The position numbers were made by a program, and so were the translations under genes. Below are positions 16,732-24,773 of a stretch of DNA of 64,000 nt, one piece after another. Below the pieces are notes generated by a model, which saw only the letters and a list, made by a program, of their open reading frames with translations, did not search any database and was not told the DNA's origin. Origin of the DNA: Hydromonas duriensis (lineage in GTDB: Bacteria; Pseudomonadota; Gammaproteobacteria; Burkholderiales; Burkholderiaceae); assembly GCF_004363775.1 (NCBI RefSeq), contig NZ_SNZE01000012.1, forward strand, positions 1 through 64,000, read 5' to 3'. The stretch's first letter is position 1. Each line of letters starts with the position of its first letter.

Positions 16732-17918
16732 TGAAACAATTTATTTGGTTTATTTTCTTTCTAGCAGCCGCTGCGGGCATAGCCTATGGCTCACGTTACT
16801 ACCCAGGAACGGCGCAATTTATTGTGGCCTCTCATCAAATCAGCATGTCGATTTATGTGTTCGCGATTCTGTTTTTAATCTTGATTGTGTTGTTTTCAGT
16901 GATTTGGCGGATGTATCGTGCGACCATGGGTTTGCCCTCGCGCTGGCGTGATTCGCGGGCAAAGAAAAGAGAATATCGCTCAATTGCTGCGGTGCAAACG
17001 GCCACCATCGCTTTACATGAAGGTCGTTGGGCGCATGCGCATAATGCGGCAAAGGTGGCCGCCAAGTTACCTCAATCAGCGGGCTTGGCCGCTTTGATAG
17101 GTGCAGCGAGTGCGCATGCACAAGCAAAACCTGCAGAGGCACTTGCATGGCTGGCGCAATTGGATGGCAACGATGTTTTCTCGGATGCCAAATATTTGCA
17201 ACAAGCCGAAATGGCACTCAAGACCAATGACAGCAGCCTCGCATTGACGGCTCTCGATAAAGCATCGGCCACCGTGCGCAAACACAGCTTGCGTTTTAGA
17301 GACTTGCAAATTCAAGCGCATGCCCAATCAGGTCATTGGCATGAAGTGTTGCAGTTGGCGAAAGACAAAAAATGGGGCGTGGCTCAAGGCATAAAAGACC
17401 AGTGGTTCATTCAAGCGACTTTGGGTTTAGTTAAAGACGAGGCCGTATCTGCAACATATTTGCGCGGTATTTACAAAGACATGTCGCAAGGCGTTCGTGC
17501 CCATGACGAAGTGTTATCGGCCTATGCTCAAGCCATGATTACTCGTGGCGAAAAAGCCGAGGCTCGTCGTGTGCTCGAAGAGGCGCAACGTGACAATTGG
17601 CGACCTGATTTATTGAAAGCTTATGTGGCCGCCGCAGATGAAAACAGTGTAACCGCCCAGTTGAAAATGATAGAAGTGTGGGAAAACCAGCGTAACACAG
17701 AAGGTAAAAAAGATGCACAATTACTGTGTGCTGCGGGTCTGTTGTGCCTAAAAGCCCAGCTTTGGGGGCGCGCCAAAGCTAATTTTCAAAACAGTCTCAA
17801 CATTACCCCCAGCATACAAGCGCACTTTGGTTTGGCTCAAACTTATCGAGCAGTGGGTGATGCATCCAATGCGCAGTTAGAAGAGGCCAAAGCCGCGGCT
17901 TTGGCGGTGGGTGTTTAA
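16731..17918 (+). CDS. hemY: HemY-family TPR membrane protein
   Basis: 395 aa. Two N-terminal membrane helices (IWFIFFLAAAAGIAYG and IYVFAILFLILIVLFSVIW) precede the GLPSRWRDSRAKKREYRSI basic loop. Helical TPR repeats then run to the C-terminus (for example EALAWLAQLDGNDVFSDAKYL and AKANFQNSLNITPSIQAHFGLAQ). This matches the HemY family of gamma- and betaproteobacteria, unrelated to the protoporphyrinogen oxidase of the same name in Bacillus. It is thought to organise late haem steps at the inner membrane. It is translationally coupled to hemX by a one-base overlap. Confidence 0.92.
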   Translation: MKQFIWFIFFLAAAAGIAYGSRYYPGTAQFIVASHQISMSIYVFAILFLILIVLFSVIWRMYRATMGLPSRWRDSRAKKREYRSIAAVQTATIALHEGRWAHAHNAAKVAAKLPQSAGLAALIGAASAHAQAKPAEALAWLAQLDGNDVFSDAKYLQQAEMALKTNDSSLALTALDKASATVRKHSLRFRDLQIQAHAQSGHWHEVLQLAKDKKWGVAQGIKDQWFIQATLGLVKDEAVSATYLRGIYKDMSQGVRAHDEVLSAYAQAMITRGEKAEARRVLEEAQRDNWRPDLLKAYVAAADENSVTAQLKMIEVWENQRNTEGKKDAQLLCAAGLLCLKAQLWGRAKANFQNSLNITPSIQAHFGLAQTYRAVGDASNAQLEEAKAAALAVGV

Positions 17919-18007
17919 GTATTTTTCATTGCTCCATACATATAAAATGCGTCACTTGATTAAATAGATTCAATAACAAAAGCACTCAAGTGAGCCAAAA
18001 GTCTGAT

Positions 18008-18053
18008 AGCAGGGTGTCAATAACGACAATTTATTACACAGTTGACACCCGCT
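18008..18053. repeat. Strong inverted repeat downstream of hemY
   Basis: AGCAGGGTGTCAA (18008-18020) is complementary to TTGACACCCGCT (18042-18053) except for one bulged A, with a 21-nt loop. No uninterrupted T run follows, so it may be a weak terminator of hemY or an operator-like element. Confidence 0.6.
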
Positions 18054-18397
18054 GTCCATCTTCATCATTTTAGTTTTATCTCTTGATTTAATCTTAACTT
18101 CTCCTTAGTTGCTGCCCTATGACTTGAGGTATGGACCTTTATTGTCATTTAACTGTACTCGCCAGTCCATTCCTATGAGAAATTTTTGCAATTTTTTAAT
18201 AAGTTTGAGCTGTGTTTTTTGTGAGTCATCTCTTTTTCTTAAGAGTTTCATACGAATAGCTAAGTAGTCTACCTTTGAGTCAATTTCGTCTGTTTATAAA
18301 AACGGTGACTAGACGATGATTTGTGACGTGTCTTTTCAAAATAAAAGCCAATAAACAATAACTAAACAGCCCTGAATGACTTTCAACTTAAGGCTTG

Positions 18398-18425
18398 TTG
18401 TCAAAATGTCAAAACAACATATAAA
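18398..18425 (+). promoter_or_regulatory. Possible promoter of the polysaccharide cluster
   Basis: TTGTCA (18398-18403), a 16-bp spacer and TATAAA (18420-18425). AT-rich surroundings raise the chance of a coincidental match. Confidence 0.4.
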
Positions 18426-18678
18426 TAAAATTTAAAAAAAACAAAAAATAGCAATTGTTTATGCTAGTATCTATACGTAGTGTTTCTGTTATTTTTATTT
18501 CTTTTAATCTTTGCTTTAATTTATGGATTTATTGTGTTTCGACTCGTTAAGAGCGAAGAAAGGTGGGCTTGAGCTGTTTATTTTGTAGAAAGCCAACTGG
18601 CTATCTATTCAATTTTTATTTCTTTTGGCTTAGAGGCTGATAACTAATTGTAATAATTAATAAATATGGGGAAACGCG

Positions 18679-19971
18679 ATGAACTTTTCTGACTTTCGCA
18701 TTGGTGTGGTGGGTTTGGGTTACGTTGGATTGAATTTGGCTGTGCAGCTTTCTAAGCATTTCTCTGTTGTTGGCTGTGATTTAAACGAAACACTGGTGAA
18801 GCAATTAAAAGATGGGGTGGACTCAACCAAAGAAGTTGACTTAGAAGATTTGAGAAATACATCCCTTGTCTTGACATCTCGGTTTGATGACTTAAAAAAT
18901 TGTAATTTTTTTATCGTGGCTGTGCCCACGCCAGCGACTAATGATGGTGCGCCTGATTTGTCTTATGTCGAAAGTGCGACGAAAAGTATTGCTGAGATTT
19001 TGAAAAAAGGCGATATCGTGGTCTATGAGTCCACCGTTTACCCTGGTGTCACGGAAGATTTTTGCGTGCCCATTTTGGAGTCCAAAGGGTTGGCTCATTT
19101 AGTCGATTTTAATGTGGGCTACTCTCCAGAGCGTGTGAACCCAGGCGATAGACATCACACCTTGACCAATGTGGTTAAGATTGTTTCGGGTGACAACAGC
19201 GATTCACTGGAAACGATTAGTTGGGTGTATGAAAAAATAGTCACAGCGGGGGTTTATCGTGCGAAGACCATTAAAGTCGCCGAAGCAGCTAAAGCGTTGG
19301 AGAATACACAGCGTGATGTCAATATTGCGCTGATAAATGAACTCAGTATCTTTTTTAATAAAGTTGGAATCGATACGCGAGATGTGATTGAAGCGGCGGG
19401 CTCAAAATATAATTTCATGAAGTTTTACCCCGGTCTGGTCGGAGGACATTGCATTGGGGTGGATCCGTACTACATCATTTCAAAGGCTAAAAAAGTGGGT
19501 TTGAATGTCCACATTTTAGAAAATGCACGAGAAGTGAATGAAAACTACAGCATTTATGTGTTCCGCGAAATGCTAAAAAAAATGTTGAAACAAGAGAGCT
19601 GTATCGGCGCAGCTAGAAAAATGCGGGTGTTGGTTTTAGGTTTAACGTTTAAGGAAAATGTACCTGACATTCGCAATTCTAAAGTGTTTGACATCATTCG
19701 CTTGATGGACGAGTTTTCAATCGAGTATGAAGTTTTAGATCCGCAAGCAGATGCTGAAATGGTCTTGGCACATTATGGTGTCTCAATTAATCCTCAGGTT
19801 GAGGACAACAGTTTTGATGCTGTTTTGTTGGCGGTGTCGCATCAAGAGTATGTTGAGGCAGGCTGGTCTCTTGCTAAAAAATATTTGCGCAGTGACGATG
19901 GTTCGGTTTTTGATTTGAAGGGTATTTTGTCGGTCGAAGGGGCCTGCTCATATAATCTTTGGAGACCATAA
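18679..19971 (+). CDS. UDP-N-acetylhexosamine 6-dehydrogenase, TviB/WbpA type
   Basis: 430 aa. Domains in order: N-terminal Rossmann NAD-binding (IGVVGLGYVGLNLAVQL), the VAVPTPATNDGAPDLSYV and YESTVYPGVTEDFCVP segments, and the central dimerisation helix (KVAEAAKALENTQRDVNIAL). Catalytic Cys258 lies in GLVGGHCIGVDPYY. The UDP-binding C-terminal domain has LGLTFKENVPDIRNSK. The YSPERVNPGD, ENTQRDVN and GGHCIGVDPYY segments resemble TviB/WbpA (UDP-GlcNAc or UDP-GalNAc to the uronate) more than UDP-glucose dehydrogenases. It is the first gene of a four-gene unit; its stop overlaps the next start. It should supply an activated amino-uronic acid for the synthase downstream. The exact sugar is inferred. 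Confidence 0.85.
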   Translation: MNFSDFRIGVVGLGYVGLNLAVQLSKHFSVVGCDLNETLVKQLKDGVDSTKEVDLEDLRNTSLVLTSRFDDLKNCNFFIVAVPTPATNDGAPDLSYVESATKSIAEILKKGDIVVYESTVYPGVTEDFCVPILESKGLAHLVDFNVGYSPERVNPGDRHHTLTNVVKIVSGDNSDSLETISWVYEKIVTAGVYRAKTIKVAEAAKALENTQRDVNIALINELSIFFNKVGIDTRDVIEAAGSKYNFMKFYPGLVGGHCIGVDPYYIISKAKKVGLNVHILENAREVNENYSIYVFREMLKKMLKQESCIGAARKMRVLVLGLTFKENVPDIRNSKVFDIIRLMDEFSIEYEVLDPQADAEMVLAHYGVSINPQVEDNSFDAVLLAVSHQEYVEAGWSLAKKYLRSDDGSVFDLKGILSVEGACSYNLWRP

Positions 19972-21194
19972 TGTTAGACTGGCTCACGGGTGTTCTTATT
20001 ATTTTCGCAATGATAGTCTCTTGTTACCCTGTGCTGATGTACACAAGTGGGCTTTTCATCAATTTGTATTGCAAGCGTTTTGATGTCAAGAGAGACTATT
20101 CCTATAAGCCCACGGCGAGTGTGATTTTATCCTGCTTTAATGAAGGGCATACCGTGTACGAGACCATCAAAAGTCTAAGGATGTCTGATTATCCTCAGGA
20201 TAAATTGCAGATTTTAGCCTTTGATGATTGTTCTAAGGATGACAGTTTTGAATGGATAAAAAAGGCAGCGCAAGACTTTCCTAATGTTGTGGCCACATTA
20301 AATGAACGCAATAAAGGCAAGGCGCATACTTTTTTGGATGGCTTGGATTTGTCTACAGCAGAAGTCGTTGTAGGGGTCGATTCAGATTGTATTTTTGATG
20401 AACATGCCATTTCTGAGTTGATGGCTTGCTTTACGGAGCCAAATATCTGCGCGGTTGGTGGTCGTGTTGGTATTTCGAATGCCGATGAAACTTGGCTGAC
20501 GCGTTGCCAAGCTGTTTATTATGCCTTGTCGTTTTTGGTTTTAAAGTCGCCTGAGAAGTTGTTTCGAAAAGTCCAGTGTTTGAGTGGTCCTTTGGTTGCT
20601 ATTAAACGCGAATGTTTTGATGCGGTCAGAGAGCAGGTCGAGAAAAGAAACTTCTTAGGCATTAGAGTGACGAACGGCGAGGACAGGGCTTTAACTCAGA
20701 TTTTATTGAGAAATGGTTATTCTACTTACCTCAACACAGATGCTGTTTGTTGGACAGCCGTACCCAGCAATATTTCAGGCTATTTGAGCCAGCAATTAAG
20801 ATGGCGTCGTTCCGCAGTTGGCCAATGGTTAGATGCACTGGCTCGCTTTCCCATCATGTTCAAAAACAACACTTTTTTGTGTGCATTTTTTAGTTTAATG
20901 CCGATTTTTGTGATGTTTAGTTGGAATGTGCTTTTTATCACATCGGGTTTGATGGGGCATTTATTGATTGTGCTTATCAAAATTCTTCTTTTTCACATGT
21001 TGCTCTCACCCATATTGGCGCTGGCATTTTTCTATATGAGTAAACATCATCTGAAACGAGAACGTGTGGCGAGTATTGGCGTTCTGACGTGGAGTTTAAT
21101 CATAATGAGTTTGTGGTTTCCATTCAGTGCATTGTTTGTCACGTTGTTTGCATTGTCAACGTTAGATGATGGTGGTTGGGTTACAAGAGCATAG
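19971..21194 (+). CDS. Processive GT2 polysaccharide synthase (hyaluronan synthase/NodC/Alg8-like)
   Basis: 407 aa. An N-terminal membrane segment (about 5-33) precedes a GT-A catalytic domain: ASVILSCFNEGHTVYETI, LAFDDCSKDD, VGVDSDC with the metal-binding DxD at 137-139, the base region NGEDRALT (ED at 237-238), and the processivity motif QQLRWRRS (274-281). Three or more C-terminal membrane helices follow, and the protein ends DDGGWVTRA, recalling the W-G-T-R motif of hyaluronan synthases. Such enzymes polymerise UDP-sugars and thread the chain through the inner membrane. The start at 19971 overlaps the dehydrogenase stop (TAATG), implying translational coupling. The product polymer is not known. 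Confidence 0.85.
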   Translation: MLDWLTGVLIIFAMIVSCYPVLMYTSGLFINLYCKRFDVKRDYSYKPTASVILSCFNEGHTVYETIKSLRMSDYPQDKLQILAFDDCSKDDSFEWIKKAAQDFPNVVATLNERNKGKAHTFLDGLDLSTAEVVVGVDSDCIFDEHAISELMACFTEPNICAVGGRVGISNADETWLTRCQAVYYALSFLVLKSPEKLFRKVQCLSGPLVAIKRECFDAVREQVEKRNFLGIRVTNGEDRALTQILLRNGYSTYLNTDAVCWTAVPSNISGYLSQQLRWRRSAVGQWLDALARFPIMFKNNTFLCAFFSLMPIFVMFSWNVLFITSGLMGHLLIVLIKILLFHMLLSPILALAFFYMSKHHLKRERVASIGVLTWSLIIMSLWFPFSALFVTLFALSTLDDGGWVTRA

Positions 21195-21242
21195 GCAATA
21201 TTTGTAATCTTTTAATGAAGTTTTTTGAAAAGGGGAACGGAG

Positions 21243-22277
21243 ATGAACGTTAAAAATCTCAAAGGCATGAATATTCAAAAAACATATCTCAAGATTTATC
21301 GAGGTTTTGGTTTTTTTCTGCTCTTGTCATTGCTGTCTTTAATTGTATGGTACATTTTTTTAGTCTTGCTTTTTTTGAGCAATCGAAGCTGGGCGATGCC
21401 TTTGATTTTGTCGACCACGCAAGAAAAAGTGATATGGAATTTTGCCCAAATTATATCGCTTGAAAAAGAAATCAATAAGCTTAAGCTCAACAAGGAAAAC
21501 TTGGGCAATGAGTTGGCTTTTAAAAAGAGAGAGCTGGGAACGAGTGAAATACTTCTTAATCGCGTAGAGATGAGCCTTGCGAATCAGGCAAAAATTTATC
21601 AAGCTGAAGCTCAAACAATGAAAAAAGATTTAACCTCTTTTCAATTGGCAGGAGCTGGAGGCGCACGCAATGATGCTTTAACAAAAATAAAAAAAGAGTT
21701 GAATGCGGGCTTAATTACCAAAGAGCAGGCCGCAAATTATCTTTCCACTCAATACGATACCATTCGTAAAACTCATCAATCCAATAGTGAAATTCAAGCC
21801 AAGATAGACAGTGCTAATACTTTAGGTGGTGGTGCTTTGAGTGCTGATGCCATGATTTTGGAGGCGCAAAAAACAGACCTCGAACAAAAAGTTGAAAGGA
21901 CTGCTTTAGAAGTAAGCTCGGTAGAAAATGAATTAAAACTCACTGAAAATAGTATTAATGACTATTCACATGTCATCGATGGTTTTTATGACAATATTTA
22001 CTACGATGCGAAAGACCGAGTCATCAATGCGGCATTTGTTCCTTATGACAACATAGATGGCGTGGAGGAGGGCGATCCTGTTTATGGTTGTGCATTAAAA
22101 GTTATTTTTTGTTCAAAAGTTGGCGTTGTGACCAAAGTGTATGGTGCAGAGGAGACTTCTTTCCACTACTTGTTTAAAACAGAAATAAAAGGAAAATTTG
22201 TATCCGTTCAGTATAACGACAATTCGTATGCCGATGCGGGCTTAGTGTTCATTGGCCGTAAACCGCTGTTCTTTTGA
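21243..22277 (+). CDS. Membrane-fusion-like (HlyD/Alg44-like) periplasmic adaptor
   Basis: 344 aa. The start at 21243 has a GGAACGGAG box just upstream; a TTG at 21225 is less likely. A basic N-terminus and one long hydrophobic segment (about residues 22-52) anchor it in the inner membrane. A Lys/Glu/Leu-rich stretch from about 60 to 250 is predicted coiled coil, arranged as a hairpin with a glycine-rich turn (LAGAGGARND). The C-terminal 85 residues are beta-rich (FVPYDNIDGVEEGDPVYGC, then GVVTKVYGAEETSFHYLF), like the barrel of HlyD-type adaptors. Two Cys may form a periplasmic disulfide. No PilZ domain is present. It would bridge the synthase to an outer-membrane channel. Assignment rests on architecture. 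Confidence 0.6.
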   Translation: MNVKNLKGMNIQKTYLKIYRGFGFFLLLSLLSLIVWYIFLVLLFLSNRSWAMPLILSTTQEKVIWNFAQIISLEKEINKLKLNKENLGNELAFKKRELGTSEILLNRVEMSLANQAKIYQAEAQTMKKDLTSFQLAGAGGARNDALTKIKKELNAGLITKEQAANYLSTQYDTIRKTHQSNSEIQAKIDSANTLGGGALSADAMILEAQKTDLEQKVERTALEVSSVENELKLTENSINDYSHVIDGFYDNIYYDAKDRVINAAFVPYDNIDGVEEGDPVYGCALKVIFCSKVGVVTKVYGAEETSFHYLFKTEIKGKFVSVQYNDNSYADAGLVFIGRKPLFF

Positions 22278-22287
22278 TTTGGAGAAC

Positions 22288-23382
22288 ATGATGAAAAAAA
22301 CAGCATTATTGATTTGCATCATTGCAGCGTATATAAGCAATGCCGCGGCGCAGGAACCTAATAAAGAAAAAGGGGATTTTTGTCGTTACGTTAAAACAAA
22401 ATCTGCTGCTGAGCAAGTGACTCTGAACTCGCCGAATGTCGTGTTTGATATCACCACCGATGGCAGTGAGAGCGCAGGCACTAAAAATACGGTTTTTTTA
22501 GGCCTCTCAAAGAATTTAGCCGATTTGAATAAGGCGAAGTACACCCATCGTTTAGCCGATACCGAGTGTCAACTCTATGAGCTTAATGATTCTATAAAAG
22601 ATGTACTTGGGTTGAGTTTACAGTCGATTGAAAAAGGGTCTTTGAACTTTAAAAAGCAAGAGATACAGCGAACGATGCAAGCGTTACAAAAGCATTTTAA
22701 TGTGACAAGTGCCAAGTTCAAAGCCCAAAATGCAACGCTTGTAGATGTGTACGACGTGCAGTCGTTGATAAAAAGAGTCAGTATCCTTGGACTTGAAAAT
22801 GATTTAGAAATAGAGAAGATTCAACAAAACGCATCATGGCCTGAGGACGCTTCATTGAATGTCTTGATAAAGAATCTTGCTCAACTTGAGTCAGACAAAT
22901 ACGACATTTTGAATCAAATACAAAAGCAAGGAAATTGGAGTTTATCTCTTCAAGCAGGTGTAAAGAAAACAGCGAACAACTCAGACGCCATTTCTTTATC
23001 AGGCGGTCGTTTTTATGGTGCGCTCACCGCGAGCTATAACTTAGGCTCTGCAAAAAGCAGTCAATTGCTAGATGAGTCAAAAGATTATTATATGCTTTGG
23101 AAGGGCGAGGACAACAATGGGTACTTTAAGCAGTTGGGGTATTTATCCAATGAGGTCATGAAGACGCGGGAGATTGAAGAGAAGAAACTGGCTATATTGA
23201 ATAAAGATGCTCAAAATAGCGACAATTTAGAGGCCATTTTGAAAAACTTTGACAGCAGTGAGGCTGAGAATTTCAAGCTAAAAGTCCTCTACAATAAATT
23301 GATGAACAATATTGATAGAGAATATTTGAAGTTTAAAATACAACGTCTAAACGAGCTGGTGAAAGAAATTGGAGTGGAGTAG
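22288..23382 (+). CDS. Divergent TolC-like outer-membrane channel candidate
   Basis: 364 aa from tandem ATGs at 22288/22291 preceded by GGAG. A signal peptide spans about 1-22 (ALLICIIAAYISNAAAQ). The mature part alternates long helices with two short beta hairpins (NVVFDITTDGS with NTVFLGLSKNL; NWSLSLQAGVKK with RFYGALTASYNLGS), the repeat plan of TolC-type proteins. The segment NATLVDVYDVQSLIKRVSIL resembles the TolC helix pattern around the dVL-x-aQ motif. It is shorter than TolC (about 430-490) and seems to lack the first helix. It lies 10 bp after the adaptor gene and ends the cluster at a bidirectional terminator. If not a channel, it is a periplasmic coiled-coil partner. Confidence 0.5.
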   Translation: MMKKTALLICIIAAYISNAAAQEPNKEKGDFCRYVKTKSAAEQVTLNSPNVVFDITTDGSESAGTKNTVFLGLSKNLADLNKAKYTHRLADTECQLYELNDSIKDVLGLSLQSIEKGSLNFKKQEIQRTMQALQKHFNVTSAKFKAQNATLVDVYDVQSLIKRVSILGLENDLEIEKIQQNASWPEDASLNVLIKNLAQLESDKYDILNQIQKQGNWSLSLQAGVKKTANNSDAISLSGGRFYGALTASYNLGSAKSSQLLDESKDYYMLWKGEDNNGYFKQLGYLSNEVMKTREIEEKKLAILNKDAQNSDNLEAILKNFDSSEAENFKLKVLYNKLMNNIDREYLKFKIQRLNELVKEIGVE

Positions 23383-23425
23383 AGCATTCGCAACACGGGC
23401 ATAACTTTATAAATGCTTGTGTTGA

Positions 23426-23476
23426 AATTAAGCCCGCTTTTTAATTGAAACTTTCGATTAAAAAGCGGGCTTAATT
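23426..23476. terminator. Bidirectional terminator between the polysaccharide cluster and puuB
   Basis: A perfect 20-bp inverted repeat (arms 23426-23445 and 23457-23476, core AAGCCCGCTTTTTAAT) has an 11-nt loop. It lies between convergent genes and has T-rich arms on both strands. Confidence 0.85.
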
Positions 23477-23486
23477 GTTTGTCTCA

Positions 23487-24773
23487 TCAAATTCCAAATT
23501 TATCGCGCAAACTGTAATATGTTGCACCGATGGCAGTGAACGGAACGCGGAACAATCGACCACCAGGGAATGGGTAGTGCGGTAATTTAGCGAACGCATC
23601 AAAGCGGTCACGTTGACCCATAATGGCTTCAGACAACACTTTCCCCGCAAGATGGGTGTAAGTGATGCCGTGACCTGAGCAACCTTGCGAGTAGAAAATA
23701 TTGTTGTGTTCGCCCAAAGTGCCGACTTGCGGTAGGCGAGATACCGTGAGTAAAAAGTTCCCTGTCCATGCAAAATCAATTTTCACGTTTTTCAACTGCG
23801 GGAATGTTTTGAGCATTTTTGGACGAATAATTGCTTCGACATTGGCAGGGTCTCGTGCACCATAAATCACGCCACCGCCGTACAATAAACGGTTGTCGCC
23901 CGTTAAGCGGTAGTAGTCGAGCAGGTAGTTACAGTCCTCAATGCAGTAGTCATTCGGAATTAAGCTCTTGGCCAATTCTTTTGGCAGCGGTGCTGTCGTG
24001 ACCACTTGAGTGCCGCAGGGCATTGATTTGGCGGATAGTTCGGGGACGAGATTACCCAAGTAGGCATTGCCCGCCACGACCACGATACGGGCGTTGACTC
24101 GACCATTTTCAGTCACGACCACAGGTTTCGAGCCACGTTCGATACCGATAACAGGGCTTTGCTCATAAATTTTACCGCCTAAAGACTCGATGGCGGCCGC
24201 TTCGCCGAGGGCGAGGTTGAGTGAGTGAAAGTGACCGCCGCTGTGGTCGATAGAGCCGCCGATGTACACATCAGAAGCGACGATTTCAGACATTTGTTTT
24301 TTGTCGAGCAGTTCAACTTGATTATGCCCGTGCTTTGCCCACAAATTACGTTGATGCTCCAAGTGGTGCATTTGTTTTTTAGTGAATGCGGCAAAAACCC
24401 CACCATTTTTCAGGTCGCATTTGATGTCGTATTTGGCAATGCGTTCGCGGATGATGCGGTTGCCTTCAAAAGCCATTTGTCCAAAAACTTTTGCGCCGTC
24501 CACGCCGACCTGTTTTTCGATGGTATCAATGTCACGGCTGTAGCTGTTGACGATTTGACCGCCGTTGCGACCCGTTGCGCCGAAGCCAATTTTGGCAGCT
24601 TCGAGGATGGTGACTTTGAATCCGTTTTCAGCCAGAAACAGACCTGTTGATAAGCCTGTATAACCTGCGCCGATGATACAGACATCAGTGTCGATTTCAC
24701 CTTGCAGGGCTGGGCGTGCTGGTGAGGGGTTGGCGGTGGCCGCGTAATAAGTGGGTGCGTGTTGAGTTGTCAT
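23487..24773 (-). CDS. puuB: Gamma-glutamylputrescine oxidase (FAD-dependent)
   Basis: 428 aa DAO-family flavoprotein. The FAD-binding Rossmann motif is CIIGAGYTGLSTGLFLAENG (residues about 32-51), followed by GFGATGRNGGQIVNSYSRD and near the end the second FAD contact GCSGHGITYTHLAGK. LLYGGGVIYGARDP is typical of PuuB/OrdL. It oxidises gamma-glutamylputrescine to gamma-glutamyl-gamma-aminobutyraldehyde with release of ammonia and peroxide. It is the last gene of the putrescine cluster, 84 bp after puuC. A paralogue lies at 51397-52686. Confidence 0.9.
   Translation of the reverse strand: MTTQHAPTYYAATANPSPARPALQGEIDTDVCIIGAGYTGLSTGLFLAENGFKVTILEAAKIGFGATGRNGGQIVNSYSRDIDTIEKQVGVDGAKVFGQMAFEGNRIIRERIAKYDIKCDLKNGGVFAAFTKKQMHHLEHQRNLWAKHGHNQVELLDKKQMSEIVASDVYIGGSIDHSGGHFHSLNLALGEAAAIESLGGKIYEQSPVIGIERGSKPVVVTENGRVNARIVVVAGNAYLGNLVPELSAKSMPCGTQVVTTAPLPKELAKSLIPNDYCIEDCNYLLDYYRLTGDNRLLYGGGVIYGARDPANVEAIIRPKMLKTFPQLKNVKIDFAWTGNFLLTVSRLPQVGTLGEHNNIFYSQGCSGHGITYTHLAGKVLSEAIMGQRDRFDAFAKLPHYPFPGGRLFRVPFTAIGATYYSLRDKFGI

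Follow-up and report, generated by a model that had tools for sequence, protein, structure and literature searches.

A compact group of four genes lies on the plus strand of a 64,000-nucleotide stretch of Hydromonas duriensis DNA (contig NZ_SNZE01000012.1, positions 1 to 64,000), referred to here as the window. The open reading frames (ORFs) span 18679–23382 and encode, in order, a nucleotide-sugar dehydrogenase (UGD), a family GT2 glycosyltransferase, a protein resembling periplasmic adaptors (protein 3) and a protein resembling outer-membrane channels (protein 4). The initial annotation described a tight same-strand unit. That description holds: all four frames are present, and the stop codon of the dehydrogenase gene shares one base with the start codon of the GT2 gene (TAATG). 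Spacers are short, with 48 bp after the GT2 gene and 10 or 13 bp after the adaptor gene, depending on which of two possible ATG codons, 22288 or 22291, opens the channel gene. The ORF list starts genes 2–4 at upstream TTG codons. The ATG codons are preferred here, each having a Shine–Dalgarno sequence of the GGAG or GGGGA type just 5′, and a purine-rich Shine–Dalgarno stretch precedes every start of the unit. Promoter-like sites over 17900–23600 are no commoner than in shuffled sequences (15 versus 13.0). The GC content of the unit is 0.401, compared with a mean of 0.475 (standard deviation 0.024) for 4.7-kb segments of the region.

Table 1. The four-gene unit and its flanking features in the window.
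Feature	Coordinates	Strand	Basis or description
Presumed regulatory/promoter region, AT-rich	17919..18678	+	about 760 bp, no ORF of 90 aa or more, GC 0.318
UGD, putative UDP-N-acetylhexosamine (HexNAc)-type 6-dehydrogenase, 430 aa	18679..19971	+	Pfam, NCBIfam
GT2 synthase, presumed processive, 407 aa	19971..21194	+	Pfam, NodC model, hyaluronan synthases in the Protein Data Bank (PDB), motifs, hydropathy
Likely adaptor (protein 3), 344 aa	21243..22277	+	AlphaFold2, Foldseek match to EmrA, alignment of 11 sequences, hydropathy
Outer-membrane-factor-like channel protein (protein 4), 363–364 aa	22288..23382	+	AlphaFold2, Foldseek, VIA-align, alignment of 11 sequences
Terminator-like hairpin, 20 counted pairs, 7-base loop	23428..23474	+	3′ end of unit

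The GT2 enzyme matches the Pfam GT2 family and carries the motifs DSD (residues 137–139), GED (236–238), QQLRW (274–278) and WVTR (403–406). By hydropathy, both termini carry hydrophobic segments. Among solved structures, hyaluronan synthases (PDB 7sp6 and 8smm) are its best relatives, with which a 12-member family profile aligns from the DSD motif to the C-terminal W-G-T-R/S region. The top curated NCBIfam models are NodC (140.7 bits, cut-off 550) and PgaC (115.3 bits, cut-off 422.3), and both scores fall far under. DSDC, GED and QQxRW are found in 13/13 family synthases. Likeness to hyaluronan synthases and NodC covers the GT2 core and its motifs; the window enzyme and its two closest relatives differ in having WVTR where 10/13 family members have the terminal motif WGTR. 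Pfam finds no PilZ domain in the enzyme. Neither hyaluronan synthases nor NodC are known to be paired with an adaptor and an outer-membrane factor (OMF). Family match, homology, motifs and hydrophobic segments uphold the earlier proposal of a GT2 synthase; the enzyme is membrane-embedded on these grounds and presumably processive.

The dehydrogenase scores above the Pfam cut-offs for PF03721, PF00984 and PF03720. The best of 12 NCBIfam models is TviB, at 421 bits and under its cut-off of 592. TIGR03026 comes second (374 bits, cut-off 189.8) and two UDP-ManNAc dehydrogenase models rank third (222 and 199 bits). The UDP-glucose dehydrogenase models AglM, TuaD and PRK15057 score lower, at 151, 116 and 47 bits. 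We read the enzyme as acting on a UDP-N-acetylhexosamine, although the models do not fix which one. The TviB/WbpA-type label given earlier is thus kept as a UDP-HexNAc type headed by TviB, short of the equivalog cut-off. Given a synthase of the hyaluronan synthase and NodC kind and a dehydrogenase nearest to the UDP-HexNAc types, a polymer containing N-acetylhexosaminuronate may fairly be expected. To that extent the suggested amino-uronic-acid polymer stands. We infer a product that is either an N-acetylhexosaminuronate homopolymer or a copolymer of HexNAc and N-acetylhexosaminuronate. According to Pfam, there is no periplasmic polymer-modifying enzyme among the four products.

The AlphaFold2 model of protein 4, built from a five-sequence alignment, has a mean pLDDT of 78 and a pTM of 0.61. 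It contains two beta-beta-long-helix repeats, with strands at residues 50–58, 66–76, 217–230 and 241–250. All 39 Foldseek matches at E ≤ 0.001 are of the OMF type (best 2.9e-10), and they include TolC, ST50, OprM, OprN, CusC, SilC, VceC, CmeC and MtrE. Six rows titled 'a membrane protein from Pseudomonas aeruginosa' are presumably OprJ/OprN-type channels. In VIA-align, 29 OMF entries lead, from CusC (Z 15.7, root-mean-square deviation (rmsd) 10.6, 335 aligned) down to Z 11.0, and designed helical bundles follow at Z 8.9 and below; helical proteins can score Z of about 13 in this comparison through common arrangement alone. A TolC-like fold for protein 4 is well supported by the models, and a trimer of such four-strand chains would give a TolC-style barrel of 12 strands. 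The N-terminus appears signal-like on reading. Cys32 and Cys94 of protein 4 (numbered from 22288) are invariant across 11 sequences, as are Cys283 and Cys290 in the beta domain of protein 3, suggesting periplasmic disulfides in both. PilO, a Pfam match under cut-off, was rejected as an identity for protein 4: it covers residues 122–189 only, in 1/11 members.

Protein 3 has a single N-terminal membrane segment (by hydropathy), a long antiparallel coiled coil and a C-terminal beta domain. Its AlphaFold2 model, also from a five-sequence alignment, has a mean pLDDT of 73 and a pTM of 0.44. The only Foldseek match at E ≤ 0.001 is the adaptor EmrA (3.6e-4, probability 1.00, query-normalised TM 0.30). 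Protein 3 is likely to be a periplasmic adaptor, though the case is weaker than that for the channel. The initial annotation proposed an inner-membrane coiled-coil adaptor and a signal-peptide protein with a TolC-like helix and hairpin plan, and the two models match adaptor and channel families (EmrA and the 39 OMF chains), not unrelated folds. For the adaptor, the predicted order of parts and the EmrA match agree with the proposal; support is moderate, with the low pTM and no detectable sequence homology. For the channel, the helix and hairpin plan agrees with AlphaFold2; the signal peptide comes from reading the sequence and hydropathy does not detect it. Likeness to TolC, OprM, CusC and EmrA thus lies in predicted folds. 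The differences are the lack of detectable sequence homology and the proposed partner, which would be a polymerase, not an ABC, RND or MFS pump. Pfam finds no transporter of these three classes among the four products.

The four genes recur as a set. They lie together on one strand in 13/13 distinct loci (the window, L005, L006, L007, L009, L010, L011, L022, L023, L024, L025, L042 and L060), as the proposed search for the gene order in other genomes brought out. The loci were found through adaptor searches; L008 repeats L006 and L021 repeats L011, and the window and L005–L007 match the profiles by construction, having seeded them. Five gene orders occur. (i) Dehydrogenase–GT2–adaptor–channel is found in the window, L005, L006 and L010. 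(ii) GT2–adaptor–channel–dehydrogenase is found in L007 and L042. (iii) Adaptor–channel–dehydrogenase–GT2, with a GH16-like gene before GT2, is found in L009, L022 and L060. (iv) Dehydrogenase–adaptor–channel–GT2 is found in L011. (v) Dehydrogenase–GT2–channel–adaptor is found in L023–L025. The adaptor and channel genes are adjacent in 13/13 loci, in either order.

The adaptor search was positive in 3/6 genomes of the genus (own genome counted) and in 8/200 genomes of the family, with 9 loci in 3/25 genera. With a channel profile instead, a set of 200 family genomes sampled in the same manner gave an identical result, the 8 genomes and 9 loci of the adaptor search. In the order, 6/399 genomes matched: besides the own genome, G398 did so in full and four others weakly and in part. 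In the phylum, 11/398 matched, again with the own genome and G398, plus nine that are weak and partial (E 9.2e-7 to 0.006, 46–135 model positions). The weak partial matches in both searches are taken as chance. Within the genus of G398 the unit is present in 1/17 genomes. A species-genome collection searched with two short peptide patterns yielded at least four loci, including Paraburkholderia, Cupriavidus and Ralstonia (4/109 stretches confirmed). Plasmid records hold one unit, L060, on a 1.44-Mb plasmid of Paraburkholderia sp. PGU19 (NZ_AP023182.1). The strain is from the bug Physopelta gutta; carriage by plasmid and a link to a host are hinted at for that copy.

The H. duriensis genome has a second complete copy of the unit, at L007:7536-12059, in the order GT2–adaptor–channel–dehydrogenase. 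Its proteins are each 18–48% identical to those of the window. Because both order and sequence differ to this degree, the copy is not a recent duplication. Beyond the four genes, one ORF of L007 matches the window (blastp, E ≤ 1e-8), with 31% identity and at a position elsewhere in the window. Between the window and L005 the unit genes are the sole matches at the same threshold, which shows that the genes around the unit differ. This change of neighbours, together with the low GC content, suggests movement as a block. Beside the unit in L005, from the same genus, are two proteins with RTX-type repeats (L005:4292-6755), PF00353 being confirmed for the first only. Pairwise identity matrices over 12 loci correlate at 0.90–0.94 among adaptor, channel and synthase and at 0.54–0.69 with the dehydrogenase, which may therefore be exchanged more freely. 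Across three pairs of relatives the four genes have dN/dS ratios of 0.008–0.108, indicating purifying selection on each; no pair includes the window, and a fourth pair reached saturation. Identity matrices and dN/dS were computed with the later ATG of the channel gene. Constant co-occurrence and these low ratios argue that the unit is not a chance assembly.

Regulation by cyclic di-GMP (c-di-GMP) was considered at the level of the genome. No GGDEF match is found in the H. duriensis genome, the same search being positive in 8/14 control genomes. No PilZ match is found either, with 5/14 controls positive; the receptor search covered PilZ, other receptor families lying outside it. Canonical c-di-GMP control is therefore unlikely in this organism. 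Within the window there is no EAL or GGDEF match. The four products include no TPR protein and no large beta-barrel porin (by Pfam, and the protein 4 model is four-stranded), the rest of the genome being outside that search. The initial annotation counted c-di-GMP receptors such as PilZ, TPR scaffolds and porins as absent. This is borne out for PilZ and TPR in the four products and for GGDEF and PilZ genome-wide, and the other parts were checked at the locus only. Some relatives do carry genes of this kind. At L022:7463-8695 and L060:6461-7780 (both Burkholderiaceae; L060 from Paraburkholderia), an EAL-domain gene stands immediately upstream of the adaptor gene. A conserved Cache-GGDEF gene is found near the unit at L011:12822-14366 (Ralstonia) and L023:5470-7014, the latter beside a GAF-EAL gene at L023:4202-5413 (all by Pfam).

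Glycoside hydrolase genes also neighbour the unit in relatives. GH18 genes adjoin it in 5/13 loci, every one confirmed by Pfam. GH18 enzymes work on N-acetylhexosamine chains, so these neighbours agree with the dehydrogenase and synthase types. The conserved GH18 gene is always on the opposite strand (L009:6126-7514, L011:11486-12559, L023:7280-8356, L024:10393-11469 and L025:6987-8063). Several of the proteins read as lipoprotein-like at their start, and the enzyme may be secreted and act on the polymer. A core role for GH18 was rejected: it occurs in these five loci only, and a genome-wide search did not find it in H. duriensis. GH16-like genes adjoin the unit in 6/13 loci (phmmer), all in relatives. 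Pfam GH16, applied to four of these loci, is over cut-off in L009, barely so in L060, short of it in L022 and without a match in L024. The L024 protein has no Pfam match at E ≤ 0.01 and may represent a divergent family. GH16-like proteins lie beside the adaptor gene at L024:9648-10412, L025:8044-8793 and L023:8337-9239. No GH16- or GH18-like ORF is found within the window; absences of these genes are soft, as flank lengths vary between loci and L006 is a 5.2-kb contig.

The unit probably encodes a dedicated tripartite machine for polysaccharide synthesis and export, in which synthase, adaptor and channel form a conduit. This reading is drawn from the observed gene content, conservation of the unit, purifying selection in relatives, synthase motifs and predicted folds; the trimer, the contacts, the passage of polymer and its chemistry would be as follows. 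(i) The dehydrogenase would make UDP-N-acetylhexosaminuronate. (ii) The hyaluronan-synthase-like GT2 enzyme would polymerize this sugar, alone or alternating with UDP-HexNAc. (iii) The same enzyme would thread the chain across the inner membrane. (iv) The coiled-coil adaptor, held next to the synthase by its one membrane helix, would bridge the periplasm. (v) Trimers of protein 4 would form a barrel of 12 strands in the outer membrane and a tunnel of helices in the periplasm, through which the chain would exit. Since chain elongation is proposed to supply the drive, no ABC, RND or MFS pump would be needed.

Several results weigh against this interpretation. Neither protein 3 nor protein 4 matches a Pfam family above cut-off, and NCBIfam models identify neither of them. 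No HlyD or biotin-lipoyl Pfam family is found at E ≤ 1 in any of 11 protein 3 members, nor is PF02321 listed at E ≤ 1 for any of 11 protein 4 members; PF02321 matches 13 stretches elsewhere in the H. duriensis genome. Profile comparisons with hhalign are negative for protein 3 against EmrA and AaeA and for protein 4 against five OMF ORFs of this genome and TolC, the best probability over both sets being 4.2%. Searches of PDB sequences with phmmer and hmmsearch return unrelated helical proteins for the two, ribosomal S20 and Nup62 among them. A lipoyl domain is not evident in protein 3, and its VIA-align list consists of coiled coils and other helical proteins, with no adaptor among the 50 rows listed, a result that does not exclude an adaptor fold. 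The query-normalised TM-scores of the 39 OMF matches of protein 4 are low (0.28–0.43); with the high rmsd, this means that topology is matched, not exact shape. A 19-residue hydropathy scan at a threshold of 1.6 flags no segment in protein 4. The structural case for both proteins rests on five-sequence alignments. Lastly, four relatives (L022, L060, L011 and L023) have EAL or GGDEF genes near the unit, and c-di-GMP may accordingly matter there.

Other arrangements of the same parts can be envisaged. The synthase might make short oligosaccharides in the manner of NodC, with adaptor and channel exporting a secreted signal or glycan instead of a matrix polymer. Among NCBIfam models NodC fits the window enzyme best, albeit far under cut-off, and the GH18 or GH16-like neighbours of several relatives could trim chains. 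Clear homology to long-chain hyaluronan synthases, reaching the W-G-T-R/S region, speaks for longer products; the four products include no acyltransferase or deacetylase, which are Nod factor enzymes, and the H. duriensis genome lacks GH18. Short products are accordingly regarded as unlikely. There is a similarly small chance that proteins 3 and 4 serve in the periplasm to regulate chain length or to tether the synthase close to an unlinked porin, with protein 4 forming no pore. The missing sequence link to OMF families, the only moderately confident adaptor model and the shortness of protein 4 (363–364 aa versus 402–493 residues in the matched OMF chains) all favour such a role. It fits poorly with strand-strand-helix repeats that come in the right order, with strands of 9–14 residues, with the uniformly OMF-type Foldseek matches, and with adjacent adaptor and channel genes at every locus in either order.

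An alginate-type variant, with its c-di-GMP receptor, TPR protein and porin encoded elsewhere in the genome, would account for the succession of dehydrogenase, GT2 and membrane-anchored co-protein, which resembles algD–alg8–alg44. Alg44 itself carries PilZ and HlyD_3 domains (PMC4594306). The variant is improbable given that neither PilZ nor GGDEF, the two domains of such a system searched for genome-wide, is found anywhere in the H. duriensis genome and that the cluster has its own OMF-like protein at 13/13 loci. EmrA-like and TolC-like folds are chiefly familiar from efflux pumps and type I secretion, so adaptor and channel might form a type I-like exporter of a protein or small molecule, only incidentally linked to the synthase. 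With no transporter among the four products, and the same GT2 and dehydrogenase linked to the pair at all 13 loci through five gene orders, this is very improbable indeed. A dedicated synthesis-and-export machine remains the preferred explanation. In its fullest form it would be a hitherto undescribed system of Burkholderiales for polysaccharide secretion, encoded by an operon and independent of c-di-GMP, in which a hyaluronan-synthase-like polymerase replaces the pump and the adaptor/TolC-type conduit is built from two new protein families. The chances of this fuller version are about even.

Published systems, considered here from parts of the cited papers, share some of these features. Synthase-dependent systems are defined by a glycosyltransferase, a c-di-GMP-binding protein, modifying enzymes, a TPR protein and a porin (PMC9734138). 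The window unit has the glycosyltransferase alone of these five. The alginate system Alg8–Alg44–AlgK–AlgE is alike in pairing a processive GT2 enzyme with a membrane-anchored partner to make a uronic acid polymer. It also relies on a c-di-GMP receptor of the PilZ type, enzymes that modify the polymer in the periplasm, a TPR lipoprotein and a beta-barrel porin (PMC9734138); the window unit encodes no such part. Five synthase-dependent exopolysaccharides (EPS) are named in PMC7112194, the main text of which mentions neither TolC nor HlyD. In rhizobia, BgsBA places a GT2 synthase beside a protein with an HlyD-like domain that is the likely exit channel (PMC9495663). BgsA differs in a C-terminus that binds c-di-GMP, and the product is a mixed-linkage beta-glucan. 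The operon is bicistronic and so, unlike the window unit, has no channel or dehydrogenase gene (PMC9495663). Bacterial chitin synthase clusters contain GT2 genes, some beside porin or efflux genes, and are proposed to secrete chitin EPS (PMC5122149). They are reported mainly from Gammaproteobacteria, with DUF1501 and DUF1800 genes and an epimerase, and the parts of the study drawn on describe no unit of adaptor, OMF and dehydrogenase for them. A chitin synthase origin of this kind was considered for the window unit and set aside: such clusters carry the gene partners just named and are listed in other taxa (PMC5122149). Type I secretion differs in its ABC domain, which is found in none of the four products.

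The closest parallel is the XcsAB–TolC model for cyanobacterial cellulose (Maeda et al. 2018, as reviewed in PMC12430437), which has no experimental validation according to that review. A GT2 synthase, an HlyD-like adaptor and a TolC-like channel are proposed to form a continuous conduit, as they would here. XcsA has a PilZ domain and makes cellulose, whereas the window synthase lacks PilZ. The genes are scattered in T. vulcanus, with synthase and adaptor sharing an operon in two other cyanobacteria; synthase, adaptor and TolC do not form one operon, whereas the window unit holds all three together with a sugar-nucleotide enzyme (PMC12430437). A further difference is that the window adaptor and channel have no Pfam match above cut-off. 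By analogy, the unit would operate like the proposed XcsAB–TolC route, but with an adaptor and a channel that cannot be placed by sequence in the membrane fusion protein or OMF families. Parts and linkage of the XcsAB–TolC type are present at the window locus, and their joint action is a proposal from genes and models. No description of this gene set, and no gene-for-gene match to a described EPS locus such as would have made the unit a known one, was found in the literature searched, with subscription journals mostly outside the search.

A synthase that feeds a TolC-like tunnel through an adaptor has so far been modelled, and not proven, for cyanobacterial cellulose, and the review of that model asks whether operon-organized clusters work alike (PMC12430437). 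The present unit, which recurs as a block and is also carried by named strains of Ralstonia, Cupriavidus and Paraburkholderia, makes this question directly testable. In the fullest reading given above, it would be the first known case of a synthase, an adaptor and a dedicated outer-membrane tunnel travelling as one mobile unit. It would also widen the range of cargo handled by the outer-membrane-factor fold and add two protein families to the field.

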